Shown: positions 1,503-51,056 of the stretch, one piece after another
How positions within the stretch are numbered: position 1 is the first letter of the stretch
Layout of the letters: every line of letters starts with the position of its first letter
NCBI GenBank assembly: GCA_021234155.1
Contig: JAJEKV010000025.1
Location: 3,807,773 to 3,871,772 of the forward strand
Length of the DNA: 64,000 nt
Reading direction: 5' to 3'
Source: Isoetes taiwanensis
Lineage: Eukaryota; Streptophyta; Lycopodiopsida; Isoetales; Isoetaceae
Notes under the pieces: model-generated
Told to the model about the DNA's origin: nothing
What the model saw: only the letters and a program-made list of their open reading frames with translations
The model's database searches: none
Made by a program: the position numbers and the translations under genes

Positions 1503-2369
1503 CGATTACATGCCTATAAGAACCAAGAGGCCCCCGACACGCTTCACGATCACCGGCAAAGAGATGGAAGTGCTTAATTGAGGATCAAGCGCCAAAACTT
1601 ACTCCAGAAGGTTGAGCTCGAAAATCACGTGTTTCGAAAGTGCATGCCTTGTATGACAAAGTTTCGGGTTCCCCGATGCGCCGAGGGGGAGGATTCCAAA
1701 TCGAATTCATTTGCCCAATGCAGAGCCCGCCAAAACGAATGTCAATCAGGAAGAAGGGAGTTATCGCGAAGATTTCGTGGGCCGTAAGCATGGATCCGGA
1801 CTATAAATATTCCCACAACCCGACCAAAATTGCAGAGGGCCGTGAGAAATGCTGGAGTGGTGGCCGATGAGCAAATTGAAATGGGTCTTCTCGATAAGAG
1901 CCAAAGAGAAGCCTTCATTAATTTACAGGTCCAGAGGAAGAAAGCAAGTGAATTGGAAAGCCAACAATTGCAGATCGAGGAGATAAAGGCACGGATCAGG
2001 AGCAGCACCAAAAATTTAATCTCTGATGATGAGCTTTGGCCTCCACTAACCAAAGAGCAGGAGCAAAGCCAATTGGACGCTGATGATGTGAGCGAGGAGG
2101 TGGCTGCAGCAGCAGGTAAGTATTCGTCCCCACAGCCTAAACCTGTGTTGCCAAAGGCAGGCCCAAAAAATTCTCGGAGGTCTCGTGCAGACCCAAAACC
2201 CCCAAAACCTCCCCCTAAATCCACTGAATTCATGGCCCCTAATCGGATCCTGTTGGAAACTGCTGAAGAAAATATTCCCAAGCCCAAAGAAGATTATGTC
2301 AGATCATCATCAGATTCTCGCCGATCCACATTTTCTAGATTCAGTTTTGGACTACCAAAGAGGTGTTGA
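1503..2369 (+). pseudogene. Coiled-coil/proline-rich fragment of a Ulp1-bearing transposon gene
   Basis: Three overlapping frames give one plausible protein if frameshifts are allowed: a basic segment at about 1503-1870 (PDYMPIRTKRPPTRFTITGK, later CPMQSPPKRMSIRKKGVIAK), then the longest frame at 1830-2369. The latter has a Gln/Glu/Lys-rich predicted coiled coil (residues about 25-65), then a Pro/Lys/Ser-rich linker. I recognise no enzymatic domain. It lies directly upstream of the Ulp1-like exons on the same strand, where plant transposons commonly carry low-complexity linkers. Frames change at about 1590 and 1830, so it is probably not translatable as it stands. Confidence 0.35.
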
Positions 2370-2923
2370 TGCCGCATCGATGGCGGTGCCCCTTCACATT
2401 AAATTTCCCCAGGTGGTTGAGAGCCCCTTCATCAAGGTCGGCAAAAGAAGTCGAAGAAATGTCGAGTTTTTACATCCAAGAAGCCGAGGCCCTTAAATTT
2501 ATGACAATCCCTTCTCGCCTCGGGGATCCGGAGAGCGATGTGGACTCCTGGATTGCATTGGTTCTTATCTCCTCGTAGGTTTTAAGTTCTAAAGTTTCTT
2601 GAATTTCAGGTTGATCACAAAGACTCAATTGCTCAATTCACGCAGGGTAATTCTCGCACTCAATTCCTATCCGAAAAGGTGCCATCATGTCTTCCCGCAT
2701 CTTGCCGCATTCAGCTGTTCTTGAGTGGAAGCAAGGCCGGGTTGGCAGGGGGCTTATGAGCAGTTGCCAAGCTCATCCCCGACAACCCGCTTGGTAGGGC
2801 ACTGAAGATCCGCATACAGCACAATTCTATTATATTCCCAATCAATCTTTGGGTAAACTCTTTGGCTTGATTATTTATGTTTTAAATCTATTTTAATTGT
2901 CTTTCAATTTGCTATTTCTCGGT

Positions 2924-3554
2924 GGCCATTGGAGCCTTTTCATCTTAGTGATCGATGGCCCGGGCGTGTCCCTCGCCTCTTTGCATTCTGCACCTTGATT
3001 CATATGATCCCTTGCATGCATCTACCCGAGAATTTGTCACACTGTAAGTATTCCTCTCTATCTCGAATTATTTAATCTTTTGCATTATGATTTAAGCTAA
3101 TTTCTTATTGACACTCGCAGATTCCTCACAGACGTGTTTAAGAGGTGGAGGCATGAGGAAAGTGCATTGCATAATGCACCCTGCATTCTAGTAGAAACTC
3201 CCCAACAACACAATAATTCGGACTGTGGTGTGTATGTCATAAATTATGTGAAGAAATTTGTTAGAGACATCAGTGGCAAGGAGGATAATGTGAGTCTTAG
3301 AGTTTATGTTTGTTGTTTCTTTTTTTTTTGTGTGCAAATTCTCAGTTCATGGCTAAATTCATATTTTAATGCAAGTTCTGATTAACCGTGATTGGTTCAA
3401 AAAAGAAGACATAGATTGCATGAGGTCAGGCTTCAAGATAATGCTCCAGAAACTGCACGATTGCTTGGCTGCAGGGAAGTCCACCTTTTACTTACCCCAG
3501 GGTGACACGGGTGATAGTAGACCCCAGACCCGCTTGCTGGTTCATGGTCCTTGA
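2924..3554 (+). pseudogene. Ulp1-like (C48) SUMO-protease domain fragment
   Basis: Pieces of a Ulp1/SENP-type cysteine protease lie in order. A His-Trp motif (HWSLFILVID, His codon 2927-2929) supplies the catalytic His and, in VID, the likely Asp (2954-2956). ILHLDSYDP follows in another frame. After an intron with a GTAAGT donor (about 3044) and a GCAG acceptor ending at 3120 comes the exon with QQHNNSDCGVYVINYV, which holds the oxyanion Gln and the catalytic Cys (codon 3224-3226). A second donor (GTGAGT, about 3290) and an acceptor near 3374 lead to a Lys/Asp-rich tail at 3375-3554. The four catalytic positions are all present, but the His and Cys parts are out of frame. Ulp1 domains are frequent in plant MULE and CACTA transposons, so I read this as transposon-derived rather than a host deSUMOylase. 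Confidence 0.6.
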
Positions 3555-3644
3555 CTTCCTGGTAAAAATCTAAAAATTTGTGAATGTGATAATCTCAAAA
3601 CTTTGAATGTGAATATTTTCTTGAACACAATGTGAATATTTTCT

Positions 3645-3900
3645 TCAAGACTTTAATGTGAACACTGGAACACTTGAATGTAATTTTGGCTTTTGAGTTA
3701 GTATAACTTTACTGTTTAATGACAGTGCAATGGCTCAATGCACCAAAGTTTAATGTTTCAAATCTTCCACCAAAGTTTCAACACCAAAGTTCAATGTTTC
3801 CACTGTCCCAAGACATATTTCAATGGTTAAGGGCTATGATAAATAATATATTCCTAATTTCAATGGTCGGGTTGTGATAACTAATATATTAACATATTCA
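3645..3900. repeat. Left copy of direct repeat flanking the 4680 gene
   Basis: AT-rich sequence with recognisable blocks (TTTAATGTGAACACT, TTTTGGCTTTTGAGTT, CTCAATGCACCAAAGTTTAA, AACATATTCAATGC) that recur in the same order and orientation at about 5392-5560. It follows the Ulp1 gene as its twin follows the small two-exon gene, so both genes share one type of 3' flank. Both copies run straight into GATCCCG hairpin repeats. Confidence 0.7.
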
Positions 3901-3904
3901 ATGC

Positions 3905-4440
3905 GGTGATCCCGGAGGACGGGATCACCAAGCAGGCGGACGGGGGATCCGGGAGGACGGGATCCAGTTTTAATTAGTGTGTGATCCCGGAGGAGGGGAT
4001 CACCAAGCACGCGGACGCGGGATTCCGGAGGGGGGGATCCCGTTGTAATTACTATGTGATTCCAGAGGACGAGATCACCAAGCAGGCGGACGGGGGATCC
4101 CGGAGGAGGGGATCCCGAACGTTTTTTTTTTTTTTTTTTTTTTTAATCCTATGGTCTGAGGCTCAATGGTCTAAATTGTAAACCTTTTATCCTATGGCCG
4201 GGCGCGGGATCCCGGAGGACGGGATCACCAAACAGGCGGATGTATGTGATCCCGGAGGACGGGATCACCAAATAGGCGGACGCGGGATCCCGGAGGAGGG
4301 GATCACGAACTTTTTTTATTTTTTTTATTTTTTTATCTTATGGTCTATTGCTCAATGGTCTAAATTCTAAACCTTTTAGCCTATGGTCGGGCGCGGGATC
4401 CCGGAGGAGGGGATCCCGGACGTTAATTTTTTTTATTTTT
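3905..4440. repeat. Hairpin minisatellite, GATCCCG/CGGGATC type
   Basis: Repeated units contain an inverted repeat with a 5-nt loop. The first is GGTGATCCCG (3905-3914), loop GAGGA, CGGGATCACC (3920-3929). Spacers such as AAGCAGGCGGACGCG separate the units. From about 4130 the units sit in a larger repeat that adds a T-run of 13-22 nt and a CTCAATGGTCTAAATT block, seen three times up to about 4500. The sequence is much richer in GC than its surroundings. No coding potential. Related arrays occur at 5550 and 44955, and a sister family at 45225. Confidence 0.85.
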
Positions 4441-4575
4441 TTTTTATTTTTTTACTATGGTTTAAGCTCAATGGTCTAAATTCTAATCCTTTTATCCTAT
4501 GGTCGACACCCTTAGAAATTGAAATCATGGCCTAATCGTTGTACAACGGGTAGTACAACGGTTCATTCATGAGTC

Positions 4576-4583
4576 TATATATA
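4576..4583 (+). promoter_or_regulatory. TATA box of the small two-exon gene
   Basis: TATATATA lies 97 bases upstream of the ATG at 4680, in a short unique window between the hairpin minisatellite and the gene. The distance fits a TATA box with a leader of about 65-70 nt. No other promoter element was identified. Confidence 0.45.
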
Positions 4584-4679
4584 CCCTTGCCTTAGTTGTT
4601 CTTGGTAGAAAGTTATTTGGTTTCAGTTGAGTTCAGTAGCGGTCGAGTTCATTTGCTTAGTGTTCAAGCCAAGTGAGAG

Positions 4680-5296
4680 ATGGTGAGGACCCGACAACAG
4701 CTTCTTGAGAGCAATGACCACAGTCTCGAGGATGTTCTCATCCACTTGAATGAAATTCAGGAGGATGTGGGGCTAGATTTTGCCCAGTATGGCAGCATCA
4801 AAACGTTCAAAAGTAAGCATGTTGTTGTATTCCTTCATATTCATGTTCTACTTCATATTCATATTCATGTATTCATATTCATATTCATGTATTCCTCCAT
4901 ATTCATGTTCATGCAGAGACCGTGGAGAATGGGGACTTTCGAGAGACCCCTGGGCCCCCTGGGCCTCTCGACAATGATCCCGTTCGACCAAGCCACAGGG
5001 CATTGCTTTGGGAATTGAAGAAGTGTATTATCCAGCGCAAGGCTTTGAAGCATTTGCTAGCTATGGACGTTGTCTGGAGAGGCAACACCCTAAAAGCCTG
5101 CTTCGAGAAAATGTATGCTGCACGGAGGCTGCGTAAGAAGGAGTTGATCAGGGAAGTCCTAGAGGGGTCTGATCCATCCCTGTGCGATATCTTCGATCAG
5201 ATCATGTGGAGACTACCTTGCGGTGTGTCAGATGTAACTGTTGACGACGTCCGGGAAGAAGGCATGGCAACCGTGCTTGATGTTCATTCAGAATGA
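4680..5296 (+). CDS. Small two-exon gene, 170-residue protein of unknown function
   Basis: Exon 1 is 4680-4812 and exon 2 is 4917-5296. The intron has a GTAAGC donor (4813) and a CATGCAG acceptor (ending 4916), and its removal keeps the frame across a split Lys codon. The intron consists largely of tandem TTCATATTCATG-like repeats. The predicted protein of 170 residues has an acidic N-terminus (a LESNDHSLEDVLIHLNE helix), a Gly/Pro-rich spot (TPGPPGPLDNDP) and a helical, basic C-terminal half with RRLRKKELIREVLEG. No signal peptide, membrane segment or known motif was seen. A TATA box lies upstream. The gene is framed by direct repeats and hairpin arrays, so it could be the cargo of a non-autonomous element rather than a host gene. 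Splice sites and frame look intact. Confidence 0.6.
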
Positions 5297-5391
5297 TTCC
5301 GAAGTAGAGTGTTAGTTTTAAGCCATTGTAACTTATGATCCATTTAAAACATTCAATCATGCAAATGAATAGACTTTAATGTTCCCAATTT

Positions 5392-5560
5392 CATGAAGAC
5401 TTTAATGTGAACACTTGGACACTTCAATGTGATTTTGGCTTTTGAGTTGGTGTAATTGTATTGGTTTTGGTTTATGAATTCGCTCAATGCACCAAAGTTT
5501 AATGTCTCAATGGTTAGATAAATAAATAATATATCAACATATTCAATTCAATGCATGGAT
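5392..5560. repeat. Right copy of direct repeat flanking the 4680 gene
   Basis: Same ordered blocks as at 3645-3900 (TTTAATGTGAACACT, TTTTGGCTTTTGAGTT, CTCAATGCACCAAAGTTTAA, AACATATTCAATTC), in the same orientation, leading again into GATCCCG hairpin units. The copies are clearly divergent, so the duplication is not recent. Confidence 0.7.
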
Positions 5561-5755
5561 CCCGAGCAGGCGGACGCGGGATCCCGGAGGAGGGGATCAC
5601 CGAGACGGCGGACGCGGGATCCCGGAGGAGGAGATCCCATTTTAATTCGGGAGTGATCCCGGAGGACGGGATCACCAAGCACGCGGACGCGGGATCCCGG
5701 AGGAGGGGATCACCAAGCACGCGGACGCGGGATTCCGGAGGAGGGGATCCCCTAT
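5550..5755. repeat. Hairpin minisatellite, GATCCCG/CGGGATC type (second array)
   Basis: About five units of the repeat seen at 3905, with the same spacers (GCGGACGCGGGATCCCGGAG). Some units vary, for example GATTCCGGAGGAGGGGATCC, where one arm base has changed. From 5760 to 6000 only AT-rich sequence without recognisable features follows. Confidence 0.85.
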
Positions 5756-6000
5756 GTTTCTTTATTACTTTTTCATGCTATGGTACGAAGTAGCCATGGT
5801 ATGAACTCCAAACATAAAACATAAAACATCCTATGTTAGGGAAGTTAAGTTTGAACATAAATATTGATAACATTAACAATATTTATCAAGAGGTTAAGTA
5901 TTTAGTAAATAGGTAAACAATTAACAAGACAGTGAAGCTCATGAGTGGCTTCAAAAGGTGTCAATGGGGATTAAACAACAGCAAACTCACAATGTCATTC

Positions 6001-8235
6001 TCACAATAGGCCCTCCATCTCAACTTGCTTCCAACTCTTCTTGGTTTCCTTCTCTTTCCTCTTCCCAATTTCTATCAGAGGCTTGAGCCTTGCCAAACTA
6101 TTACCACACTCCTCTTCGACTGCATTAGTGGGGATACATGTTATGGATTTGTTGGAGTTTGTGTAGCCAACATCATCCATTCTTTCAAGCCGCGTGTCGA
6201 GTTGTCTCATGAGTGAGTCAGTTGCAATTAGCATGCCTGGATCTCTTTCTGCCCTTGACATCACTCTAGCAATGACTTCTTGTAAGGATCTCCTTGTCTT
6301 ATCCAGGATAATCCTTGTCTCCTTTGGAGAGGGAGACTCGTCCAAGCCTACAATCTTAGCCACATCTTCATATGTGGTATCCTCCCCATGAGGGGCCCTC
6401 TGAAGTAGATCCTCACATGGCCTCAAGTGGTCTATGCCCCCACCAATTGTCCCATATTGGGATCCAAGCACCTGTAAAAGATCTTGATCCCTGTAGTTGC
6501 CCAACATTTGCATGACCTTAACTTGGTGCTTACATAAGTTGCCCTTGGCTCCCCAGGAACAGTCACAGCATGCCCAGTTCTTGTGTGCCCCGTTCACAAA
6601 GTATGGTCCTTGCCCTAGAGTGCGTTCACTTTGCACTTCTGCCTCACCTTCTTCGAAGTTAGTGAATGTGACCTGCTCATCAGCAATCTTCACCACAAAC
6701 CCTGCTTCCTTCATGGACCTAGATGACAAGAGAATTATGTACTTGCAAAATCAAAATAGGCTAGAGAAGATGATTAGCCGTTGTACCTGATGTATGCCAT
6801 ATGTGTCTCCACGTTGTTGGTTAGAATGTAGAGCAGTCAATCAATCCTCCGTCCTCGGAGTGCTCGTTTTGAAATGCCCAGGCGCCTTTTCAAGGCACAA
6901 TGCCATGCCTCTATGGCTGCATTAGTCTCTTGGTTGGAGTGAGGGTACATCCTTGTGGCCAAAACCCATTGGCAAATGTTTTTGGTCCATTCCTTACTCA
7001 TGTACGCCGCCAACTTGGGGTATTGAGGATACTTCCTCACCAAGTCTTCCAATTTCTTAGTTGCCTCCCTCCTTACTGCCTCCCTATATTCTTCACCGTA
7101 GACATTGTCCCCTAGAGGACCTTCTGTCCTGTACATAATGTAACCAAGTTCCTTAAACAGATCTTTACATGCCACCTTGTTCTTGATGTTCTTCTGCAAC
7201 CACTTGATCCAAGCCCTCCTCACGTGCCATATGCAAATTTGCACGGGCACACTAGGAAAAACCTATGCAAATAAACAATGTTAGTACATATGGAATGCTT
7301 CCAATGATTGGAGTTTGACAAGTCACCCTTTTCACGGCCTTTATCTCAGCATGGGCATCATCTGTAATGATGCAAGAAGGTTGCCAATCAGGATCATGTT
7401 TGCATAAGGACTCCTTTAGTGCTTGCATCCACTTTGTTATAGCTCCACTCTTTTGAGAATTGGTAATAACATAAGCCAATGGTAAACCATTGGAATACTC
7501 AACAAAGGCGATAAGTGTGAACAGATAGAACCTACATTAAACCATACACAATAAACAAATCAACTCAACGTAGAACGTACCAGGAGCACACACAATAAAA
7601 GTTGGGGAAGAACCGCAACTCTTGTCGTTTGTTTTGAAAGTAGAGTCCATGCAAATGGCTCTGTTCTTGCCAAATCTCAACATGGACTCCCTTTGGATTG
7701 GAGTCATAACTCCTAATTGAAACAAGTCTCCTTGCTCATACATGAACACAGATTCTTGGTGTTGTTGAACCCACATTTCAATGCTAGTGGGAAGATCTTC
7801 ATGTAGCTTCCATGTGTTACGAACAACCCCCTTTTCAATATTGTACACGTCCCGAATTTTCAACACATCATCCCTACACATGCTTTCCTGTCCATTCACT
7901 TCAAGTCTCAACTTCCACCTCTCTTCATGCATGTTCATGACACTACGTGGCGTGTGCCATTGGACAAGCTTCTCTCTTACCCATTCCCTCAGTTCTTGTG
8001 AGATCCAGGGTGCTAGCTTGAACTTAACTCCACAGGATGGGTCAACAAACCTACCATGGCAGGGCAAACCTTGGATATTCTTGTGATCAAAACCATAATA
8101 AGTGATATGTGAAAATTCTGGAAGGAAATAGAGTTGCCTGATTGTGAAATGGCACTGGTAGCCTCTACGTATGCCCTCTCCCCTCTCAACCCTTATCCTA
8201 CGTCTGCCCGATGCCCGTGGTCTATCCTCAACCAC
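6001..8235 (-). pseudogene. Mutator-like (MULE) transposase with C-terminal SWIM zinc finger
   Basis: Read right to left on the minus strand. At 8235-7581 is an N-terminal region ending in the first catalytic Asp motif (CMDSTFKTN, Asp codon 7647-7645). At 7479-7252 a second Asp motif (CIITDDAHAEIKAV) follows. At 7250-6837 come the CxxH-type CIWHVRRAW and the Glu motif (ETNAAIEAWHCALK, Glu near 6911). At 6729-6001 lies a SWIM finger, Cys55-x-Cys57-x8-Cys66-x-His68 in that exon, and a coiled C-terminal tail ending in a stop. The D-D-E order and SWIM finger identify a MULE transposase that cuts and pastes DNA. GTACGT at the end of the first block suggests an intron; other block edges may be introns or frameshifts. 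FAR1/FHY3-type domesticated proteins share this architecture, but repeats around it favour a transposon. The N-terminal part is separated by an LTR element inserted at 8650. Confidence 0.75.
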
Positions 8236-8649: not shown

Positions 8650-10350
8650 TGTGGATCGTTCCAAGTATTTATACTGTGATAATGATAAATATATTGACAC
8701 GTCACCCAGTATAGATACGCCACCATGGGGTATGGTAACCTAGGGGGTTGACTTAAAAGGGATTAAATTAGCTATGCTAATTTAATTATTAAGGATAATA
8801 ACCTATAATTAAGGAATTAATATTAAAAAGGGATAATTAAGCTAATTATGGTTTGGGAAGGCGCCACGTGGCCAAAATCGATTGGCTAACATGGTGATGC
8901 TAATTGGAGCCATCAAGGTGGATCAAGACCCCCATATCGACACAATTCACCTTGGAGCGGTTGAGCCCAACCTTGTGACCCGTGAGAGCTGACCACCTTG
9001 AGCAGTTGAGCGCCACCCTTGTGACCAGAGCTTAGCGCCACCCTTGCGACCAGAGCTGAGCGCCACCTTGAGCAGTTGAGCGCCACCCCTGCGACCAGAG
9101 CTGAACACCAAGACCAAGAAGATGGAAATCCCCAATGATAACGGGTCCAGCAGGAACACAGGTGGGTGGCTAGTGTAGCTTGTGAATTCTAGGGTAGCGC
9201 CCCTTTTGGGCACTTGTTATGTTGTTTCTGTCTGTTCTTTCTGTGTTTTACTCGTAGGAGCTAACCCTTGGTTGTAAAGGTAAGTTCTCTTTATATTCCG
9301 ATTCGGGTTTTGCTCTTGACGGATGGATTGATAGTTCTTTATGTGAGTATTACTCGAAATGGGGAGTTAAGGGGGTAGAGACCTCGAGCTCATATATGAT
9401 AGTATGCTCCTAGATAGTGCCCCCGTAATATTCCCATTAGATGCGGCTGTGTACAAGAGACCACCGGGTCAAAAGATGCTATGGTCCGGCTTAGCACCGA
9501 GAAGGGACACAAGTGGTGAAGTGGGGGTGGGGTCTTGCACGAACATAAAAGGCTCCTGAGACTCCTACAGTGGGCTAGACCCGATAGCCGGTCACGTAGA
9601 GGGCCGGGTATGGGTCTGACACTCCCTGGGTGTAGAGGTGTGACCCGTACGGGGCACCTTGCACTTTGAGTAGATTTAGGGTGAGTAAGTCGGTATGGAT
9701 GCGGGGTCGCCGATGCGACACGTATTCTCTAGCTCATCCATGGAACCACCGTGATCCCGGAAGGGGACGCTTCCGACCTGCCTCATCGGACCGGGCGTCC
9801 ATGAACCCCCCGGAGAAGGCTCGCCAGGTGATACCTCGAGCCGGCGCCTCCGGAAGGCTATAGCGAAGCCATAGCGTGAATCGACCCATCTGCAAAGTGT
9901 GCACAGGAGGGGTGGATGGAGTGGACAACCCTAGCCGATGTTCTATGCCAGCCAACGCCAGGTTATACCTCTGTCTGCTGATCTCTTGAGGCCGAGCCGT
10001 CAGTCTATCCTCACAGGAGTCTGAACCGGGGTAGAACCTGGGGTTTGGGGTGTTTTCTTAGTTTAGATGCATATTCTTTGCCGATGGTATTTGGATGGAT
10101 GCGCCACCCTTCGTGGTGGCTATTTATATATGATTTATGCTGTGTGCTAACATGTATTCACGCTTCCACGACGTAGGAGTCCCACTGAAGGCGTGGGCCG
10201 AATGACCCCTCCGTGTCCTTCACTCGGCCATCCCTCTATAGATGGCCCGGGAGAGACGGAGGGCCCTGCTCGTGGCGACACGGTCGCCATGGGAGGGGAA
10301 AGTCCCCGTATGTATACAGCCGGGGGTCGTATATATTCGGGGAGCGTCCT
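8650..10350 (+). repeat. 5' LTR of the gypsy element
   Basis: The left end is set by similarity to the 3' LTR start and by TG. The right end is placed just before the primer-binding site at 10353, giving about 1.7 kb. Only the first 160 bases can be compared because the 3' LTR is truncated; within these the 3' copy lacks about 14 bases near GCTATGCTAATTTA. The right end does not show the usual CA, so it is approximate. A TATA-like stretch (TTTATATATG, about 10121) could be the promoter. Confidence 0.65.
8950..9115. repeat. Short tandem repeat inside the LTR
   Basis: About five degenerate copies of a unit built from TTGAGCGCCACC and GCGACCAGAGCTGAGC, 25-45 nt apart. It lies about 300 bases into the LTR and could be an enhancer-type tandem array, but no factor site is recognised. 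Confidence 0.6.
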
Positions 10351-10352
10351 AG

Positions 10353-10364
10353 TGGTATCAGAGC
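10353..10364 (+). promoter_or_regulatory. Primer-binding site, initiator tRNA-Met
   Basis: TGGTATCAGAGC is the standard plant LTR-retrotransposon primer-binding site complementary to the 3' end of initiator tRNA-Met. It sits just downstream of the presumed 5' LTR end and marks the start of minus-strand DNA synthesis. Confidence 0.9.
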
Positions 10365-11050: not shown

Positions 11051-12384
11051 ATGCCACGCTTCAAGCTGACCGTCGACCTAAAGAAGATGAGTGTCTTCCA
11101 ACTGTATAGCGTCTTAGTGGACTATCTTTCGAAGGAGGACCCCCTGGTCGACACTACCCTCAACCTTTTGGTGAAGCACTTCATTGAAGGCCGTAGAATT
11201 CCTTATCCCATTTTTCATTTCAATGATCGCTTCCTCATGAAGCTTAACGAAGCCCACCAATCCTATACTCTTGTAGAGCAGCCTGACCAAGCCTGGGCCT
11301 TCGTCAAGTTTTACCCATTAGAGGTCGAGGAGGAAGATCCCGAAGAGCCTATTCGGAGAGAGGCCCAGCGGATTCAGCACCTTGCCAGAGTAGAGGACCT
11401 TCAACAAATAGCTGGGGCCCTACCAGAAGAACGGGCCAGTGGGTTTTACTACCTTGGGGAAGGCCATGTAATTATGTACAGGACCACTACTATCTCCCCA
11501 CCTTCTTCTGGAACGAGGATCTGCATGCTTTTGTTTTTGAGAATGTTCCACCTAGCTTCACCCAAGATCGTATGGAGTTGGTACAAGCAGACATGCGGGC
11601 TCGCCCGGCCCGGTCCCATACAGAGATCGCCCGGTGCCTACAAGCGCGTTTGGATAAAGAAGCTCGAGCTGCTGAGAGAGAGAGGCTTCGCAAGGAAGGG
11701 GAAGATAGCCAGAACCAACAGAGCGGGAATCAACAGGTGGATCAACAGGACGACCAGCAGGTTGATCAGCAGCAGGATCAAGGTGTTGGTCAGAATGTCG
11801 ACCATCAGGGAGACCAGAACATGGGTGATAACGTAAATCAACCGGTAGATCCGCAGGGAAGCCCCAAGAACAGGAAGCATAGTGAGAGGGGTAACAGAAC
11901 ATTGAAGAGGAAGAACACCAAACCCGTTAAGGGAGGTGTGGGTTACAAGACCCGTCTGCAGGAGAACGCCGCCATTGCCAAGAAGACATCGGCTCAGAGA
12001 CGGGAGCAGATTGTTCAGCGGGCAAAGCACCCAACAACCGGCGGGAAATCCATTCCGTCGCTCAGGGCAACCCTCAAGCCACGGAAGCCCCACAGATATC
12101 GACCGGGCACAGTAGCACTTCGGGAGATACGTAAGTATCAGAAGTCTACTGAGCCATTGATTCGTCGGCTTCCCTTCCAGCGGCTTGTACGGGGAATTGC
12201 CCAAGACTTTAAAACCGACCTGAGGTTCCAAGCTTTTGCAATCCTCGCACTCCAGGAGGCTGCAGAGGCTTACCTCATCGAACTCTTGAGCGACGCCAAC
12301 CTTTGCGCCATACACGCAAAGAGGGTTACCATCATGCCCAAGGACCTCCAGCTAGCACGAAGGATCCGAGGGGAGTTTCGGTGA
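11051..12384 (+). CDS. Retrotransposon ORF1: novel N-terminal domain fused to a histone H3 fold
   Basis: Start chosen at ATG 11051 (context GACCATGCC). The N-terminal part (to about 11460) is an unrecognised, mostly helical, acidic domain beginning [20 protein letters not shown]. One frameshift between about 11440 and 11479 moves reading to the frame that continues to the TGA at 12382-12384. Then follow a charged helix, a Gln/Asp-rich linker (about 11713-11870) and a Lys/Arg-rich segment. The last 99 codons (about 12085-12381) match histone H3 residues 37-135 without a gap. [49 protein letters not shown] and [16 protein letters not shown] are all recognisable. Tetramer-interface residues equivalent to Cys110, His113, Asp123 and Arg129 are kept; changes include L60P, K64R, E73G, E105S and an FR end. 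The loop 1 length is canonical, so it is H3/H3.3-like rather than CENH3. The role is unknown; nucleosome binding or packaging is inference. Confidence 0.85.
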
Positions 12385-12630: not shown

Positions 12631-14019
12631 ATGGCTCGCCCAACCTTGCAGCAGTGGTATATGGACGGAGAGCATTGGGATCCTGCAGTTCCCTTTGATC
12701 TTCTTCACCCCTACCTGCTCCAGCGGGTAGATCTTGTCTCCAACATGCAGGTGCACCCAGACTATGCTGCCTTCCTTCAGTTTTTCCATGAGGAGATTGT
12801 ACCTGCTTGCGTCTCCAATGAAGACGACACACAACTCTATCTCGGCGTCCACACTTTGCTCGAGATGCTAGGCAATGATGAGCACGCCCGGAATGTCCTC
12901 AAGGGCATAAGAAGGAGGGGGACTGACCTTCCTATTGTTACAATAGAATGGGAAACTTATTTTGAGGCCCGATTCGCACTGGCCATCATCATGGACCAGT
13001 ATATTGAGGATGAGGAGATAGCTGCGGAGCAATCCTCTACGCCTGTACCTCCTGACTCGGAAGACGGCGAAGTCGTCGATGAGCAGGATTTTATTAGGTG
13101 GAAGGAACTTGCTACTGAAGCTCCTGCCAGCCGACAGAAAGGCCTCAAGCTCGAAGGGCTAAACCTTCTTCCTTCAGTACTCTTGAATAACCAAGAGTAC
13201 CTGATTTTTGAGGACATTATGTGGGCCTACCGTGTCATTACGGGGATCCGCCGCAAGAAGATAGAGGTCCTCTATGACCTTGCAGAGTATTGCCAAGATG
13301 ACTTCATCGACTTTACCACACCGATTGTGTATCCCTCACCAGTGGAGAACTTATTGGCATATCAGCCCGAAGAACAAGAGCCCGTTGAGACTCTTTTGTC
13401 ACTTCGCCAGTTCTTACTTAGTGACACACCACAGCCTCCAGAGGAGCATTTTGCGGCTCAGATCCGACCCCCTCTCGCAGACCCGCCCTTGCAAGTCACC
13501 ATGGGAACGGTGGGTCAGGACGAAGAAGACCTTTGGGACACCAAGGTCAGCCTTAAGGATGATAAGGAAGAAGAAGAGGAGGAGAAGATCCCCGCGAACT
13601 TGGAAAAGGAAGCGGAGACCTCCAGAGATCCTCAGATTAGGGCAATGGGCAACCATGTGCCCCGATTCTTTCTCTCAGCCTTCCGGCAAGGAGAGGTGTT
13701 GTTCTTCTCCAAGAACCTAGGGCCTTCTTCTGCAGCTTCTTGGTGGGCGCTCCGAGCCTTATCGACTTCAGCGGGCCATAAGAAGATTGATTATCATGCC
13801 ACCACCATAACTTTGGTCCGTAGGGATTTGGCTATAGCAGCATTGGGTGATGTGGCGGGCTGCGCTAATATGCGCCTCCTTGTGGCGGCACCCTTGGCTA
13901 CTTGTTTACCCCCAGAGGCAGCAGCTCGAGCCACCCTTTCCGCTAGCCCCAGTGCCACTTTGATGCGCTACCGTCCACCTCCTCAGCCTATGGACGAAGA
14001 CGAGCGACCCAGTTCTTAA
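12631..14019 (+). CDS. Retrotransposon ORF2, unknown acidic protein
   Basis: The frame is open from 12523, but the first ATG in good position is 12631 (MARPTLQQWYMDGEHWDPAV), giving about 462 residues. The upstream part of the open frame is pyrimidine-rich leader. The protein is helical and acidic, with an EDEEIAAEQSS segment, a run of six Glu near its middle, and a Pro/Asp tail (PPPQPMDEDERPSS). No zinc finger, protease, polymerase or histone fold is seen. It lies between the H3-fusion ORF and gag, a position where most Ty3/gypsy elements carry nothing. The frame is uninterrupted over 1.4 kb, in contrast to gag-pol, which suggests coding constraint until recently. Function not known. Confidence 0.7.
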   Translation: MARPTLQQWYMDGEHWDPAVPFDLLHPYLLQRVDLVSNMQVHPDYAAFLQFFHEEIVPACVSNEDDTQLYLGVHTLLEMLGNDEHARNVLKGIRRRGTDLPIVTIEWETYFEARFALAIIMDQYIEDEEIAAEQSSTPVPPDSEDGEVVDEQDFIRWKELATEAPASRQKGLKLEGLNLLPSVLLNNQEYLIFEDIMWAYRVITGIRRKKIEVLYDLAEYCQDDFIDFTTPIVYPSPVENLLAYQPEEQEPVETLLSLRQFLLSDTPQPPEEHFAAQIRPPLADPPLQVTMGTVGQDEEDLWDTKVSLKDDKEEEEEEKIPANLEKEAETSRDPQIRAMGNHVPRFFLSAFRQGEVLFFSKNLGPSSAASWWALRALSTSAGHKKIDYHATTITLVRRDLAIAALGDVAGCANMRLLVAAPLATCLPPEAAARATLSASPSATLMRYRPPPQPMDEDERPSS

Positions 14020-14935: not shown

Positions 14936-16448
14936 TTGAAATTCTGCTTATATCTTGTTATGCTCAATATAGACGGTGCACGCAACACCGCCTGGCAGAC
15001 ACCCTCAAATGCCAGTAGGTTAACACCCGAACAGGAACTGATGTTAATGAAAAGGCAGCTAGGCGAGTTACAGGCCTATATGTTGCATGCCAATCCACCC
15101 CAGCATATTCAAGAGGACGGACCGGAATTACCACAACCGCCACCAAGTCCACCTACACAGCAGCCGTCCCCACCGGAGACTAGCCCTGCACCTGTAAAGA
15201 GGAGGCCCCATGCCAAACATCGTCGGAGCTCCTCCAAGGATAGCGCCACCTCCTCGCACTCGGCCACTTCGGTGTCCTCTGAGTCGTCTGCATCATCTGG
15301 TGACCATACAAAGCGCCGGGACAAGGAGTACCGTAAAACGGTTGACACGGCCATAACTAGTATATGGAAGAATAGGAAACTGACCCAGTTTGATGGAAAA
15401 TCTAGAGGTGGACTGAATGCAGAGTCCTGGCTCGACGAGATGAAGGAGTTTGGTCGTTCCTATGGCATGACAGAAAAGGATACAGAAGGTTGCTACCACA
15501 AATCTTACAGGGGCTGCCCGTATTTGGTGGAAGGGCTATGCCAGAGCCAAGCATCTGGACAGGAGCAGATGCAACTTTAGGAAATTCGCAAAGGCTTTTA
15601 AGTCGCATTATGTGCCTCGTGCGCACAAATGCCAACAGATCCAGACCTTCTACAGGTTAGAGCAGAAGGGGATGTCAGTTCAGGCCTACACTGATGAATT
15701 CATGCGCCTGAGGCTGTATGTACCAGGGATGAATGAAAAGAGGGCGGTGGAGGGCTACATTGAAGGGTTGGCCCCATCCATTAAACGACTGGTTAAGGCT
15801 ATAGACCCCAAGTCAGTTGCGGAAGCTGAGGCTAAGGCATTAAGCCTCGAGGAGGACACATCAAGGAACCAGTATCCGCGTCCTGCTCCTTACTCGCAGC
15901 CACGCCTGTCCACACCTTACAAACCCCGCTCACCAAGTCCGGGGCCCTCTCAGCAGAACTCTTATGGCCGCCAGGAAAAGAAAGTCACCTTCAGCACGCC
16001 CGATAAATCGAATAATGTCGGCAAGGAAGTTCGGAACCTTTTACAGTCTATTCCTAAAGAGGCTCGAGAACAGCTCCGCCGAGATAAGGCATGCTACAGG
16101 TGTATGCGACCCAGCCACTTTATGCAGAATTGTCCCTATGTCACGCAGACTGCCCAGCTGGCCATGGCCGACCTTGATTGGGATGATCTTGAGTCCACAC
16201 CACATGTCGAGGACGAGGCTCCCGAGTACATTCACGGTGCGTCTCATATTCTTGCAGCCATTGAAACTGGCAACGCTGAAAGTCAGCCTTCTGTTATTTC
16301 CACCATAGGCCAAGTAGACAGTAAGCCTTTCATAATTTTGATGGATACGAGTAGTACACATAATTTTGCTTCTCCTAGAATGGCCCAAGTATTGCAGCTT
16401 GAAACATTGAGATCCCGACCAAAGCCCACCACGCTTAGCCGCTGGTAA
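14936..16448 (+). pseudogene. gag: gag (capsid and zinc knuckle) plus N-terminal protease of the gypsy element
   Basis: First frame 14936-15580: a Gln/Pro/Ser-rich N-terminus (PPPSPPTQQPSPPETSP, a Ser-rich stretch), then the capsid start (LTQFDGKSRGGLNAESWLDE). A frameshift near 15500 moves to the frame of 15612-16448, which continues the capsid (QTFYRLEQKGMSVQAYTDEF). It then shows a CCHC knuckle, CYRCMRPSHFMQNC (CX2CX4HX4C, 16092-16133), and the retropepsin active-site region FIILMDTSSTHNF, where the family motif DTG is DTS. A second frameshift before 16453 carries the protease C-terminus (YDLIVGKEFL, 16453-16686). Gag forms the particle and binds RNA; the protease matures the polyprotein. 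Two frame breaks make it inactive as written. Confidence 0.8.
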
Positions 16449-16452
16449 GATC

Positions 16453-16686
16453 GTGCACACTCATGGCCGCCGCATTAACCTTAAGATGCTTGCCGTGCAC
16501 ATGCCGAAGTTAATGGACATTGGCAAATATGATCTTATTGTTGGTAAGGAATTTTTGGCATCTGCAAAGGCCAATATAGACTGCGAGAAACGTGAGGTTA
16601 CCTTCAACGCCGCCAATGGAGGCCGCGTGACTATAAAAGGTGATCCATTCAACCCTATTATGCGCCTATGTCCATCGACAGCTTAG
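16453..16686 (+). pseudogene. Retropepsin C-terminal part
   Basis: Continues the protease in a new frame: LMDIGKYDLIVGKEFLASAK fits the conserved ILG-type region after the flap in gypsy retropepsins. It stops at 16686, before the connector to reverse transcriptase. About 78 codons. Confidence 0.6.
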
Positions 16687-16759
16687 ATAAAGCTATACGC
16701 CAGAAAAGCTCCTTCAAGGTCATTAGACTTGCCTCCATTGAGTCGATGCTAAACGTAAG

Positions 16760-17345
16760 GTGTAATCGATACCTTGCCAGAGGGGATTGCTAACCTTCTC
16801 CGAGAATTTAGTGATCTTTTTCCAGATGAGATCCGGAAGCTTCCTCCTTTTAGAGGGGTAGAATGCGAGATAGCTTTGGAACCGTGCACTAAGCCTACCA
16901 AGAAGGCCCCTCAGACCTCAATGAGTCCTCCGTGAGTTGGCGAGCTTAAGAAGCAACTTCGGAGTTACTAAACCTAGGTTTCATTCGACCTAGTGTTTCG
17001 CCTTTTGGCGCCCCTATCCTTTTTGTTAAGAAAAAGGATGGCTCCTTGAGGATGTGTATTGATTATAGGCAGCTCAATAAGCATACCATCAAGAATCGCT
17101 ATGCTTTGCCTAGGCGTATGATCTAATGGACCAGGTTGCAAAAGGCCAAATATTTCTCAAAGATTGATTTACGCCCAGGATACCATCGATAAGGATAAAG
17201 GAGGAGGATATCCATAAGTCTGCTTTTCGCACTAGATATGGGCATTATGAGTTTACCGTTATGCCTTTTGGATTAACTAATGCCCCTGCAACTTTCATGC
17301 GGTTGATGAATGACGTCTTTCGCCATGATAGGTTCCTTGTAGATA
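16760..17345 (+). pseudogene. pol: Truncated reverse transcriptase of the gypsy element
   Basis: Across several frames one reads a gypsy RT N-terminus: LPDEIRKLPP-like lead, [20 protein letters not shown] then [27 protein letters not shown], and [16 protein letters not shown] just before 17345. The catalytic YxDD box that should follow is absent because the match ends at about 17345. RNase H and integrase are also absent. Frame breaks occur at about 16940, 17130 and 17190. The deletion joins RT to 3' untranslated element sequence (17345-17721), which has no recognisable gene. Confidence 0.8.
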
Positions 17346-17734: not shown

Positions 17735-17877
17735 TGTGACGTTCCAAGTATTTATACGGTATACGTATAAATATATTGACACGTCACCCAGTATAGATAC
17801 GCCACCATGGGGTATGGTAACCTAGGGGGTTGACTTAAAAGGGACTAATTTAATCATTAAGGATAATAACCTATAAT
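17735..17877 (+). repeat. Truncated 3' LTR
   Basis: Matches the first 160 bases of the 5' LTR at 8650 with few differences, then ends at CTATAAT. The remaining 1.5 kb is missing and replaced by CTT/ATCTT-rich sequence, so target-site duplication cannot be tested. Confidence 0.85.
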
Positions 17878-23165: not shown

Positions 23166-23517
23166 TTTATGTAAGTGCCATGGTATTCATTCATGTACGT
23201 CATAACATTAACATCTTAGTATGGATGGATGTAGTAACTGCACTCACAAATAAAGCTATCACATTATATGCAATCCCACTCCTTTCACCAATACACATGT
23301 TGCTACAATTATGATGGCACCTATAGCCCAGGAATCGCCCTTATTTTTCTTCCTAACAGTTTTGGCTATGGTTTTCCCTCCTTCGTTTTTTTCCCCTTGT
23401 GGCACCGCCAGACAATCGTCTTTCTGCTATGGCAGAGCAGAGCAGCGCATCCACAACCGTCGCCATAACTCTCATCTGCCTGTCTTCATCCACAATTTTC
23501 CTGGTGTTTGTCTAAGT

Positions 23518-25156
23518 TTTGGAATTTGCTGCTTGAAGCTATTGATACTTATGTTGGAGATGATCCTCTGGAGCCTTGGATCAGGTAACAATCTTTTGCC
23601 CTTGCTTTTGCTTAAATATCTTTCCCCTTATTTTTCCTGTTTTTCTTCTAGATAGTAACTTGTATTTTATCTATAGATGTATTGAATGGACACAAGAAGC
23701 ATACCCTTCTAAAGGAGCACAATCTGGCATACTTCCAATGCTAGAACTATGTGTGAGAACATTTCGTGACAACAAGAAGTACCGGACAGATTTAAGATAC
23801 CTCCGAGTTTCGATGAACTACGTAAGCTTTATCTCTATCCCATTCATGTTTAAGAACTTTGTTCATAAACTTCCATTCTGCATTTCCAGACTGATCGTTG
23901 TACAGACCCCAGAGATATATTCAAATTTTTGGAGATAAATGAGATTGGAAAAAACCATGCCTTATTTTATGAATCATATGCTAAGGATACGGAGAAGTGT
24001 AGGAATTTCTCCAAAGATAATGAAATCTATGCCCTGGGTATTTCAAGGTATTATATCTAGTGTTCTTTCCATCATGTTATGTTCAATGCTTGAGAAAGTT
24101 TTTTAAAACATTGTATGGGGAAGCGGTGCTAGTTCAGAGGCTGAAAAGCTTGGACAGAGGATTCATAACAAGTTCCAGGAAAGTTGCCAAGTATCCTATG
24201 ATTGAGGTAGTTCTCCTCTGCAGATTGTTGGCATTTTTGCAACAGAAACCACGATGAAGAATATGACTTTATGGACTCTGACACGAGGCTACAGATAATT
24301 TACTAGGGAAAAATAAGAGATCTTTTGGGGAGATAGGAACTGCACTTGCAAAACCAGGTACAACATGCTTTATTTACAGTATTTTTATGCTTACGGAGAC
24401 AATCACCTGCCCAGTGCATTCTTAACAACTTATTTTTATGCTTTTCTCAGCAAGAAAAGTTCATGCACTACAGCCAATAGGGAAGGCCAATCCCAAAATC
24501 AACTTAAGCAAAGGGTGATTGAAGACATTAGAGACACCTCTCTTATCTAAATTTGTTATATGGTTTTCAAAACCTTTGTGTTTGGTTTAGGCTTTCTATA
24601 TATGTAGACCCTGAATTTGGTCCCAACTCTGTCTCACCTGCACCACAAATTGAGAAGCCTCTTTGGACCAATCTGCCAAGTCAGGTAGAAAGATCAAAGG
24701 AGAACATTCAACAACCATCCAAATGGATTAAAGCAAAGGTGCGTATGAATGTGAAATATATCAAAGGCATACAGAGAAGTTATGTTTTGTGTTATGCTCA
24801 GATCCCTCAGAAGCCCACAGGACCACCACCAGAAGATCAGCTGCACGTTTTTGTGGATGAAGAGTTTGTAAGGTGATCTTTTTCTTTTCTTTAATTCATG
24901 TCCTTGGCATTGGTTGACCTTGTACGTTATTTGGTATTTGCAGAGCTGATGTTGTTAGGGCACATGGAACAAAAGATTGTGAATCTATGCCACTAAAGAT
25001 ATGTCTTGACTATGTGCGAGATCTTAAAAGGCAAGTGCTACTTGTTACTTGAAATTCTAACCTGGCTTGGCTCTGAAAGTCCTTTTTCTTTCTAAAATTT
25101 TCAGAGAGTCTAAGATGCTCAGATACGATCATTGGCTAGGTTTTTGGAAGATATGA
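23518..25156 (+). pseudogene. BUBR1: BUBR1/MAD3 spindle-checkpoint gene, 5'-truncated copy A
   Basis: Exons of the Mad3/Bub1 homology region. Exon to 23584: LLEAIDTYVGDDPLEPWI. 23677-23821: RCIEWTQEAYPSKGAQSGIL through the RTDLRYLRV motif. 23890-24057: TDRCTDPRDIFKFLEINEIG, then ALFYESYA. Later exons: 24451-24513, 24591-24738 (with a KEN box in RSKENIQQPSKW), 24802-24872 (IPQKPTGPP, HVFVDEEFV), 24952-25030 and 25105-25156, ending in frame at TGA 25154. Introns are GT-AG except the last, which is GC-AG. BUBR1/MAD3 inhibits APC/C-Cdc20 at unattached kinetochores through KEN boxes. The N-terminal exon with the first KEN box is not seen. In this copy the acceptor of the exon after 24057 is altered (TATGGGGAAGCGG versus TAATAGGAAAGCAG in copy C), so correct splicing is unlikely. 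Confidence 0.75.
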
Positions 25157-26690
25157 GATAAAAGCAGATCATTGTTTCTGTTATACATGCAACAGTCAAA
25201 CTCACACAATTTGGAGGCTTATGACAGGGATAATGGTCGGTCACAGACCAATATTACATGGGTAATGGGCAAGTCAGTGTCGAAGTAGCTGTGACCAAAC
25301 ATTTTCCTATGTAAAGGCAATTTTGTCCGGCAGGCAGATATCAAGGTTTGAGGAAGGAGAGAACCTTTGCGCGAGGTAAAAAGAGTCTGTAGTTGACCTG
25401 TTCCTGTCCTTAGATGAAATCTTGAAGATAGTATTTTTAGTGGTTAATAACACCTTGCCATGCCCATAATGTCAAATTTTCTCAGTTGACATGTCAAAAC
25501 CATCTTTGGTTCTTTTGTTTTGCTATACCGACCGATCTTGGCTGTGTCGATATTTTGGCAGCCTGACATTTTGCTTTGAGAAGCACTGTTCAAGGTAAGC
25601 TCCTTGGCCTTATGAATTCCCTTGCCGCTAAGCTCAGATAATGGACTTTCTTTACCTGTTGCCCTTGAGTGATGGTCCCAAGCTCCGGCCAAGGCAAAGA
25701 ACACAAGGAAAGTAAATCTCATAGAGCAACAATTGGATTCATATAAATGCCAAATTCTAGGACTTTGGAGCCCACAATCATGAATTGGATACAGGTCCTT
25801 ATGTCTCATGATGTGATCTGTACTGTGATGACTCATCAATAGAAATGTACCCTTTTTGAAAGTTGTGTAAGAACTATGTAAGCAAAAGTTTTGGGTCAAT
25901 CAAACGGGAACACTGCATCCAATGGTCGTACCCTATGTCAGGGGACCATCTAGAAGATAAAGAGGACAAGACAAGTAAGTAATTGACACGAACACGGTAC
26001 AACACCTAAACTCTTTCACATTATGTCATGGAACTCGGGTTATTTATTCCAATTTTGCATCAACTTCACCGACGTTTGTAGGTCGAGGGGAGCAAGGTGG
26101 AAAAAGAACTTAACGAATTCCTTACATTCACTATGCTAGGCAAGTAAGGTGGTAATTTTAGGACGTGCAACCAGAGTTAGGACGGGATGTGTGTAAATGG
26201 AATCTGAGATCGTGATATATTTGGCCAAAAAAAGTGGTATATTCGGCGTGAAAGTGCATGGCAAGGCCAAAATCTTTGGTCAGATCGATCTTCCTGCTTC
26301 ATAGGTTGCGTGATATTCCCTTCAAACTGGTCCTCCATTTTTATTTGAATAACAAACCATAACAAAGTTTCTTTTGATGATCTAGCAGACGCAGAATATC
26401 CAGTTTAATTTAGGAACTAATAGAACTATAGTAGATTTCTTGGACGAAATTGCCTTCTCGTATACCTTAACACTTACCTTAAATGCTCCTCTTGCCAATA
26501 TATGCTTTCCACTAGATGCTTTCCATGTACTTAAATATTGCAGATACTACGGATTGCCCAAAACCATGGGTGGTTATCTGTACCTGTACTTGTAGTATAT
26601 AGATGATTGAAAAATTTTGAACGCATGGTAGAAGTTTGGACACACAAACCCTTAACACGGGTCACCTAAATGCAACAAGTTTATGTATAC
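25157..26690. other. Flank downstream of BUBR1 copy A; one unidentified minus-strand ORF
   Basis: Mostly non-coding. A minus-strand frame at 25899-25444 (151 codons) has no recognisable motif and is frameshifted at its end in copy C (49672-50127), so it is probably not a gene. Nothing else identified. Confidence 0.4.
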
Positions 26691-26691
26691 A

Positions 26692-26792
26692 GGAATGTTG
26701 CTACTGTGTTGATTCCAGGGAGGAAACAGGGGACGACGCCGTTAGGCAAAGGCCCCTGTTGACTCCCAGGAATCAACACAGGAGCAACATTC
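26692..26792. repeat. Fold-back sequence with about 40-nt arms
   Basis: Left arm 26692-26732 and right arm 26753-26792 are complementary apart from a few mismatches and bulges: GGAATGTTGCT pairs with GGAGCAACATTC, TGTTGATTCC with GGAATCAACA, GGGAG with CTCCC, and AACAGGGG with CCCCTGTT. The loop is about 20 nt. It could be a short MITE end pair or a small-RNA precursor-like hairpin. The same structure is in copy C at 50957-51056 with several changed bases. Confidence 0.75.
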
Positions 26793-27312
26793 GTGAACGT
26801 GAATGGAGGTTGCCGGAATCGCAGGTAAAACCCAAGAATGTTGCGTGGAATGGAGGAATGTTGAGTAAAAACAAGGGACAACAATGACATAAAAATTTGT
26901 TAGCATTCCTTTAAAGAAATAATGCCACGTGGCACGGTGTGATTGGCTGACGCGCCTCAATTAATCCTAACCTACATTTACGTTTCATGTTTGCCATGTA
27001 CATTATTATATTAACTAAGGAGTTGATTCTCTAACGTTTCTTTGAATCTATTGATCGTGAAATAAGTACTCATTATTTTATGGCTACTTGCTCATATTGA
27101 TCTTGAGAATCACACATTAGAAAATCACACTAGTAACAGTGCCCAACGTTGTTGGGCATTAGTTAGGAACCTGTAAATGGTACCAACCCAATCTTCATGT
27201 TAGAACTTATATTATCCATATCTACAAAAGTACATATTAAGCCTTATGCAATTAAATTGAGAGATATGATACATTTTTGCAAGTGAGAAGTTTCACTCAT
27301 ATGCGAAAGTTC
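26793..27312. other. Non-coding; small palindrome
   Basis: No gene. GCCCAAC GTT GTTGGGC at about 27141-27157 is a 7-bp stem with a 3-nt loop. Otherwise AT-rich unassigned sequence. Confidence 0.4.
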
Positions 27313-28362
27313 TTAACACTAGAGTTGTCCCTTGATGAACCCAAATGGGTTCATTCGGATACTTTTTTTGAAATTCTATTATAGCTCTGAGATAAAGAAT
27401 TTGTCTACATACTCACAATATGTTGTCCTCCATGAGTGTACATATAAGGAAAATTTTATGAAAAATATAGAAAGCTTCTATTACCAAACATAATGTGGAC
27501 CCGAATGCAAAGGGGTCAAGTTTATTCTCAAAGTCTTTCACATTTCTCACATTATTTTGCAAAAATAATTTTTCCTAGGAGTTCTAATTCTTCCATCTTG
27601 TAAATCATGGTATGAGAAATCTATCGCAAGAAGAATAAGAAAAATCTATGGTAGAATTTTCGAGAAAAAATTCCTTAAAGTTTGAAGTTCAGAAGTTCTT
27701 TATGGACCCAGTTAGGTCCCCCGAGGGTCAAAGTTTTGAAAATTCATAGTACTACTCCACTTTTTGCAAAAATGAAATCCATTTAGCAAGCGTGTAGTAC
27801 TTAGTATCTATTTCCATTGAAAAATAACAGTACCTTCACATTCTTATTCTATTTCAAATATCATGGATATGAAATGGTTCCTGAATGTCTATTTTTCAGA
27901 AATTATCTAGGGACCTGACTGGGTCTCTCACGGATTGAAATTATGATTTGCCCATTAATACATCAAATTTTTATGAAATCACATGAAATTTGAAAAATGA
28001 ATAGCGTTCATAGAAAATTAATGTTATCTTGAAATTTGTATTCCATGTTGAGTGCCATGAGATTATATCATATCATCGAAACCATTGAATTGAGTGTATT
28101 TCAAGGTGTGATTGTGCCAAACTTGTGAAGAATTTTATTTCGCCATTGAATATAGTGGTACAACTTCGAGTTAACCTCCCATAGGCCGATTGGCCTCCTC
28201 GGATGATAAAAGAACCTTCCTTCCTTCCTTCCTTACAATTCAGGTGTTCATATTTAAAATCTCATAAGTATCATGAAGAACTAGTCCCTAATATGGAGAA
28301 GGATTGAGGGACCCATATGGGTTGATTAACCCAAACAGTCCCCCAGACAACTCTAGTGTTAA
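27313..28362. mobile_element. TTAA-flanked MITE with piggyBac-like ends, copy A
   Basis: The terminal inverted repeat CACTAGAGTTGTC occurs at 27317-27329 and, inverted, at 28346-28358. It is flanked on both sides by TTAA (27313-27316 and 28359-28362). The 1042-base interior is AT-rich and non-coding. It carries several short palindromes pairing GGGTC/GACCC types (GAACCCAAATGGGTTC, ACCCATATGGGT) and a CCTT run near 28220. TTAA target duplication and a CxCTAGA start are typical of piggyBac-class elements. The CACTA start could also suggest a CACTA derivative, but that class makes 3-bp duplications. Twin at 51576-52628. Confidence 0.6.
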
Positions 28363-30000: not shown

Positions 30001-30059
30001 CAACAACAGATATCATAGGATCGAACAAAAACTTCGACAGAGCGACTAAGCCTAGACTA

Positions 30060-32320: not shown

Positions 32321-32339
32321 ATATCTTGACTTCTCGAAT

Positions 32340-33035: not shown

Positions 33036-33086
33036 AGGGAGGAGGGGGAGGGAGGGAGGGAGGGAGGGAGGGAGGAGAGAGAGAGT
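33036..33086. repeat. GGGA/GA microsatellite, copy A
   Basis: Runs of GGGA and GGAGGG with a short GA tail, between the CACTA end and the minisatellite. Confidence 0.95.
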
Positions 33087-50956: not shown

Positions 50957-51056
50957 AGTTGCTCTTTGTGTTGATTCCGGTGGAGGAAACAGGGGGCGCC
51001 GCCGTTAGGCAAAGGCCCCTGCTGACTCCTTCGTGAATCAACACAGAGCAACATTC
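50957..51056. repeat. Fold-back sequence, copy C
   Basis: Counterpart of 26692-26792. The stem is weaker here because of changes such as ACTG to CTTTG and CCAGGG to CCGGTGG. Confidence 0.65.

Follow-up and report, generated by a model that had tools for sequence, protein, structure and literature searches.

The closest precedent for the gene described below comes from a fungus, Pyrenophora tritici-repentis, where a hAT-type DNA transposon family encodes the H3-like protein H3L; 26 very similar H3L genes, suspected of drift, are described, with insertions in the tail and a sequence that is neither canonical H3 nor CENH3 (PMC3538342). Captured host-like histones, often N-terminally extended, also occur as single viral genes, among them the bracovirus H4 (CvBV-H4), which is known to enter host chromatin, the H3 of Manila clam xenomavirus and the H3 of the phycodnavirus DSLPV1; most have 73-89% fold identity and the best-described extensions span 35-68 residues (PMC9145170). 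The same review lists two phycodnavirus metagenome genomes with H3-like proteins whose extensions of ~170 residues have no known homology, and the HzNV nudivirus Orf1, in which a large N-terminal part and a low-complexity middle precede a C-terminal histone domain (PMC9145170).

Here we describe, from a 64,000-nucleotide stretch of Isoetes taiwanensis DNA (the window), an LTR retrotransposon whose first ORF upstream of gag ends in a histone H3 fold (the H3-ORF), together with its relatives in the same genome. Histones are among the least expected proteins in an RNA-based mobile element. Ogre carries an ORF1 upstream of gag, and we know of no histone in OTA (Ogre/Tat/Athila) elements. These resemble the Isoetes element in having extra ORFs in a large Ty3/gypsy element but are non-chromoviruses (PMC6317226), while plant chromoviruses with type II chromodomains share its Gag-PR-RT-RH-INT-chromodomain order and tRNA-type primer-binding site (PBS) (PMC6317226, PMC3350952). 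What sets the Isoetes element apart from the latter is that three additional ORFs precede gag, of which the first encodes H3. Like H3L, the Isoetes ORF is H3-like, encoded by a mobile element and multiplied; unlike H3L, which belongs to a DNA transposon with terminal inverted repeats, it sits in an LTR chromovirus, occurs in four diverged families under purifying selection and has a shared 210-aa N-domain (PMC3538342). It shares host-like capture and N-terminal extension with the single viral histones and its overall build with HzNV Orf1, but the former belong to DNA viruses or bracoviruses and the latter, likewise from a DNA virus, is a doublet of the H4-H3 type with 30-40% identity (PMC9145170).

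The sequence-only reading knew of no described LTR element that carries H3, and none was found in the open-access literature among the matches listed, which does not establish absence from print; for a mobile element of another kind, the fungal DNA transposon, an H3-like gene is described. The word "histone" is absent from a review of additional ORFs in plant LTR elements (PMC7264820) and from the main text of the Isoetes taiwanensis genome paper (PMC8566536), and words beginning with retrotranspos or retrovir are absent from the main text of the viral-histone review (PMC9145170). A pattern search of viral contigs, from which records of this genome may be left out, gave 28 matches with no relative among them.

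Layout and class of the element

The features of the window copy are collected in Table 1. The H3-ORF lies between PBS and gag of an LTR element, as had been claimed from the letters alone; the claim of a single ORF across 11,051-12,384, however, failed, since the N-terminal part is read in frame 2 and a frameshift near 11,480 puts linker and H3 into frame 1. In seven related copies (L069, L071, L060, L040, L079, L082 and L080) a single open H3-ORF of 435-494 aa is present, and the LTR family has among its genes this fusion, which runs from an N-terminal domain through a Q/D-rich linker and a basic segment into H3. ORF2 and ORF3 sit between the H3-ORF and gag both here and in L069 and L071, where ORF2 is broken or partial. 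We take the PBS (TGGTATCAGAGC) to be of the initiator-Met tRNA type. In the gag-protease region RVP_2 remains under its Pfam cut-off (0.0016), and a CCHC zinc knuckle is seen by eye in gag. The chromodomain is missing from this copy, in which pol is deleted; with its frameshift, degraded pol and truncated 3' LTR, the window copy is dead.

Table 1. Features of the window copy (positions in the window)
Feature	Position	Strand	Evidence or remark
5' LTR, ~1.7 kb	8650..10350	+	start, at ~8650, repeated at 17735-17852 (92.6%); 1.6-kb LTRs of relatives align; end fixed by PBS
Primer-binding site TGGTATCAGAGC	10353..10364	+	exact motif in 23/30 N-domain-selected loci
N-terminal domain of H3-ORF, first part, frame 2	11051..11480	+	homologous in families A-D, 33-40% identity
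Remaining N-terminal domain and charged helix-like stretch, frame 1 past frameshift	11481..11700	+	
Q/D/N-rich linker, borders approximate	11701..11880	+	translation of ORF 11572-12384; same type in family A relatives
Basic segment replacing H3 tail	11881..12084	+	
Histone H3 residues 37-135 (alpha-N helix and histone fold)	12085..12381	+	PF00125, E 7.8e-40
ORF2, 462 aa from ATG	12631..14019	+	no Pfam match; similar ORF after family B H3-ORFs
ORF3, ~165 aa	14205..14702	+	no Pfam match
gag running into protease, frame change near 15,580	~14936..16448	+	PF19259 (3.2e-7), PF03732 (1.8e-5)
Degraded protease and reverse-transcriptase remnant	16449..17345	+	Blast to L069 up to its RT
Truncated 3' LTR	17735..17852	+	92.6% to start of 5' LTR

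Elsewhere in the window, minus-strand ORFs at 6001-8235 resemble a MULE transposase by eye, with one sub-threshold Pfam match (7537-8235), and contain CDCSWGAKGNLCKH, presumably a SWIM-type zinc finger motif. Short imperfect direct repeats of GGGATCCCGGAGGA-like units cluster at 3900-5780. The stretches 23,341-33,057 and 47,587-57,280 form a 9.8-kb duplication of 96.5% identity, which is part of a larger repeat containing arrays of a 19-bp minisatellite at about 33, 44, 58 and 62 kb.

Two further element copies, each read in two pieces (L069/L070 and L071/L072), have LTRs at 363-1986 and 1953-3580 (92.0% identical) and at 394-2007 and 1995-3577 (94.9% identical), respectively; in each, the PBS follows the 5' LTR immediately and an H3-ORF of 484 or 470 aa precedes gag. 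The LTRs start with TGTGAC and finish with GTCACA, with at most slight deviations; the 5-bp repeat GATTC stands on either side of L071/L072, and the flanks of L069/L070 match imperfectly. A family B copy on contig C1018 likewise has paired LTR ends (L089/L090; 95.8% over 746 columns) and a PBS (in L081), and paired LTRs thus flank the same ORF in all three copies checked, from families A and B. Pfam domains in L069/L070 follow the order Ty3 capsid, protease, RT, RNase H, integrase and chromodomain, the last at the integrase C-terminus in L070 (PF00385, E 1.5e-9). The LTR pair, PBS, gag-PR-RT-RH-INT order and chromodomain of L069/L070 identify the element as a Ty3/gypsy chromovirus. By eye, this chromodomain is without the first and third cage aromatics, as in type II chromodomains, for which their absence is the rule (PMC3350952, PMC6317226). 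Assignment to the Tcn1 clade was considered and rejected, since a tRNA-type PBS is present; that clade is described as usually self-priming and without one (PMC6317226). Gypsy elements as a whole are reported to make up 10.7% of the assembly (PMC8566536).

The captured histone: copies, identity and selection

We searched the Isoetes taiwanensis assembly (1,658,258,908 bases in 1110 contigs) with five queries, namely Pfam histone, N-domain A, H3 part A, H3 of family C and N-domain B. Each gave at least 150 matches: the best 150 scored candidates matched in 150 of 150 cases, for N-domain and H3 alike. Other copies therefore carry the ORF, and the sequence-only reading withstood its own refuting condition that none would. 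The first-look candidates, which are unscored and not copy numbers, came to 8705 for Pfam histone (host genes included), 2406 for N-domain A, 8664 for H3 A, 9029 for H3 C and 3403 for N-domain B. Thirty loci picked by the N-domain alone, including the window, have H3 similarity downstream in 26 cases (within 1.5 kb, full and open in 17, broken or partial in 9, none in 4). When 30 loci, again including the window, were picked by H3 instead, the N-domain was full in 13, partial in 9 and absent in 8; five of these (L047, L048, L052, L055 and L058) have a rearranged 236-aa form without the N-domain, in which an ORF2-like piece (TLHQMLGGDE, by eye) takes its place ahead of linker and H3. In such genomes, element copies can swamp both the tally of histones and phylogenies of H3.

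The translation of ORF 11,572-12,384 matches PF00125 with 136.4 bits against a gathering score of 26.4 (E 7.8e-40), which confirms the H3 domain. The gap-free alignment to H3 residues 37-135 was borne out, in the window and in other element H3s, and "about 85 of 99" matches became 84 of 99 against host H3.3 (locus L078): from H39 onward 82 of 97 residues agree, as do K37 and P38. The fold assignment rests on sequence homology, because single-sequence AF2 models were poor (pLDDT 58.3 for the H3 part and 48.6 for 142 aa of the N-domain); Foldseek with the H3 model returned three nucleosome chains at 82-84% identity, a match carried by sequence and not by fold, since TM was about 0.3 and rmsd 14-17 Å.

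As to the kind of H3, the closest PDB chain for the window is 7ux9_E, Histone H3.3 (E 9.5e-52), and the window is identical to H3.3 and to other host H3s alike at 82 of 97 residues. Families C and D have H87 and L90, families A and B F87 and L90; host H3 copies with S87 or T87 likewise have L90. We take H87 and L90 (and T31) to be the marks of plant H3.3, and the captured histone was perhaps this replacement variant. CENH3, with its longer loop 1, divergent fold and centromere localisation, was rejected: loop 1 of the element H3s is not extended but of H3 length, and 81-87 of 97 fold residues equal host H3.3. In all 11 element copies compared with host H3.3, V89I and T107A are present, residue 86 is replaced by A or T and residue 105 by S or G, and residue 135 differs as well; I124L is found in 10 of them. 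The alpha-2 changes comprise S86A/T, H87F (A and B), V89I, G102E/A, F104L (A and D), E105S/G and T107A. In 12-14 of the 14 uninterrupted N-domain-selected family A copies, R49, R63, R69, R72, R83, F84, C110, H113, K115, R116, T118, K122, D123, L126 and I130 are kept, which we take to be DNA, H4 or H3-H3' contacts in nucleosome structures; across these 14 copies 70 of the 97 H3 positions do not vary, and at 60 of the 70 the residue is that of the host.

The element-specific N-domain of ~210 aa is joined to H3 by the linker and the basic segment. It is homologous across families (blastp E 5e-32 to 2e-49, at the identities of Table 1), and nine of its members gave no convincing match in Pfam (a single member matched each of two families, at E 0.11 and 0.52), nor did its profile in the PDB (two chance-level matches only, E 1.5 and 1.6). 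In all four families read, the canonical 1-36 tail (K4, K9, K27, K36) is replaced by the basic segment and, further out, by linker and N-domain, and only short motifs recur. Family D proteins begin with MARTKG in 6 of 6 cases (L080, with its ORF from 465, and L084-L088), T following in 5 of 6; the host H3 start is MARTKQT. This start may be a relic of a full-length H3 split by N-domain insertion, may imitate the H3K4 peptide, or may be coincidental. Both family B copies with the start read (L081, L083) begin with MANTKS, and the L075 sequence begins within it (NTKS); family A proteins start with MPRFK or MSRFK and family C proteins with MEEVK. The basic segment of family B contains ARKSG in both copies open there (L076, L077), resembling the ARKS of H3 at K9/K27.

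The H3-ORFs read fall into four diverged families with N-domain and H3 common to all: A, the window copy and its relatives; B, L075-L077, L081 and L083; C, L073, L079 and L082; and D, L080 and L084-L088. Between families H3 keeps 78-90 of 97 residues, and N-domain identity drops to 33-40%. In a tree of 43 distinct H3 domains, one branch each separates A (100/99), host (100/95), C (94/95) and B (90/92) from the remaining sequences; the tree is unrooted and without outside H3, and does not by itself demonstrate one origin. The shared derived H3 changes suggest one capture; convergence is possible because I89 occurs in viral H3s too (PMC9145170). A host H3 was probably captured by the chromovirus lineage once and long ago, and the event is undatable because dS between element and host H3 is saturated. 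Integrase plus chromodomain of a B copy differ from those of A copies by dS 0.73-0.95 and dN 0.154, against 0.75 and 0.024 between A copies; A-B H3 synonymous sites are saturated, and LTR ends of A and B are 80.6-85.1% identical. Together these values, on the basis of one B backbone, suggest that old H3 cassettes may have been exchanged on a common backbone. In this family B copy, L091 (C1018:19370900-19372700), RT is lost and the protease runs into integrase, and the 477-aa H3-ORF is open.

Selection was assessed by dN/dS from NG86 counts. For H3 we used 20 of the 30 N-domain-selected copies, the other 10 being dropped because H3 was absent or less than 85% covered. H3 dN/dS was 0.305 at dS 0.02-0.1 (9 pairs), 0.129 at dS 0.3-0.5 and 0.100 above 0.5 (60 pairs), i.e. 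purifying at 0.10-0.13 once dS exceeds 0.3; the falling values fit selection during spread and neutral decay after insertion. N-domain dN/dS fell from 0.311 to 0.129 with rising dS in the 30 N-domain-selected copies, and from 0.250 (one pair) to 0.144 in 16 H3-selected copies. H3 dN/dS in H3-selected copies was 0.037 overall, lower than in the N-domain-selected copies but biased by the way in which these copies were selected. For the pair L069-L071, both chosen for long open ORFs, dN/dS was 0.021 for H3, 0.040 for RT-RNaseH and 0.038 for integrase, with an N-domain dN of 0.253 at saturated dS; in this pair only, constraint on H3 is at least equal to that on the catalytic genes. Between families, synonymous sites of H3 are saturated in all pairs compared but B77-D80 (dS 1.52). 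The H3 part is under purifying selection, and gene conversion with host H3 cannot mimic the signal because synonymous sites against the host are saturated. Chance insertion was rejected on the strength of selection and the many copies, and it is almost certain that the H3-ORF descends from a host H3 and is a gene of the element under selection. A host-derived H3 has been kept by a retrotransposon lineage through divergence into four families.

Proposed role of the fusion

The reading that we favour, tentatively and at somewhat short of even confidence, is that the fusion forms a dimer with H4, becomes part of nucleosomes and exposes its N-domain, a putative chromatin tether. Nucleosome entry, tethering, the steering of integration and the disturbance of silencing marks, as proposed in the sequence-only reading, are all conjectural. 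The basic segment may direct nuclear import, the conserved histone fold would pair with host H4, and the fusion could then be deposited into nucleosomes with the N-domain held outside on the long linker. Such nucleosomes might serve as a tether owned by the element, a dock for its nucleoprotein complex or integrase, and/or as a patch whose H3, without the normal tail, resists silencing. The alpha-2 chaperone site reads HAIL or FAIL in elements and HAVL, SAVL or TAVL in the host; this resembles viral single H3s judged likely to enter host chromatin, whose sites include SAIL and TAIL (PMC9145170), and supports nucleosome entry. The alpha-2 changes as a set point the other way, as they might affect H4 or chaperone binding, and a tether agrees poorly with the multiplication of a form that has no N-domain. 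Broken copies are numerous, with a full open H3 missing in 13 of 30 N-domain-selected loci, and we count this too against nucleosome entry. If the protein does enter nucleosomes, a genomic parasite would directly edit the composition of host chromatin. The system would then allow one to test how elements reach or avoid particular chromatin states, and the type II chromodomains of plant chromoviruses, orphans so far, would gain a candidate partner.

An anti-silencing or dominant-negative histone is unlikely but the strongest of the alternatives: H3 without the normal methylatable tail, or the tying up of H3-H4 chaperones, would loosen repression, and the N-domain would serve stability or chaperone binding. 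The replaced tail in all four families, the constrained histone core and the multiplied N-domain-less form (5 of 30 H3-selected loci) agree with this; a bare decoy, however, needs no N-domain, and this one is homologous across families with dN/dS of 0.13-0.17 at dS above 0.3, while tail-like motifs persist (ARKSG in B, 2 of 2 open copies; an ARTK start in D, 6 of 6).

Distinctly less probable is a packaging role, in which the fusion would bind element RNA or cDNA in the particle or preintegration complex, nucleocapsid-like and without nucleosomes. Its position upstream of gag in the element and the strongly basic segment adjoining the histone fold are consistent with packaging, but such a protein would not obviously keep H4- and H3-facing residues or the 60 of 97 invariant positions equal to the host, and gag has the CCHC zinc knuckle, seen by eye, of its own.

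We give a slight chance, close to that of packaging, to a private chromatin mark, in which the element histone would be written into host nucleosomes and read back by the element's own integrase chromodomain, H3 core, N-domain and H3-like peptides together making up the mark. The idea draws on a chromodomain that, by eye, is without the cage residues for methyl-lysine, and to our knowledge the type II class has no known partner. If true, the element would supply its landing pad as well as the reader and would target itself by a code of its own making, without recourse to host marks.

A transduced host gene fragment riding as a passenger with no role for the element is very improbable: plant LTR elements are well known to capture genes (PMC7264820), but the ORF is kept in four diverged families under purifying selection, with open frames of at least 400 aa, uninterrupted by stops over the match, in 76 of 150 scored matches for family B and 34 of 150 for family A (hand count). 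Just as improbable is a fusion that is mainly a host gene from which the element copies derive, for which we found no positive evidence beyond the lack of the exact PBS motif in 7 of 30 loci; the exact motif lies upstream in the other 23, and paired LTRs flank all three copies checked.
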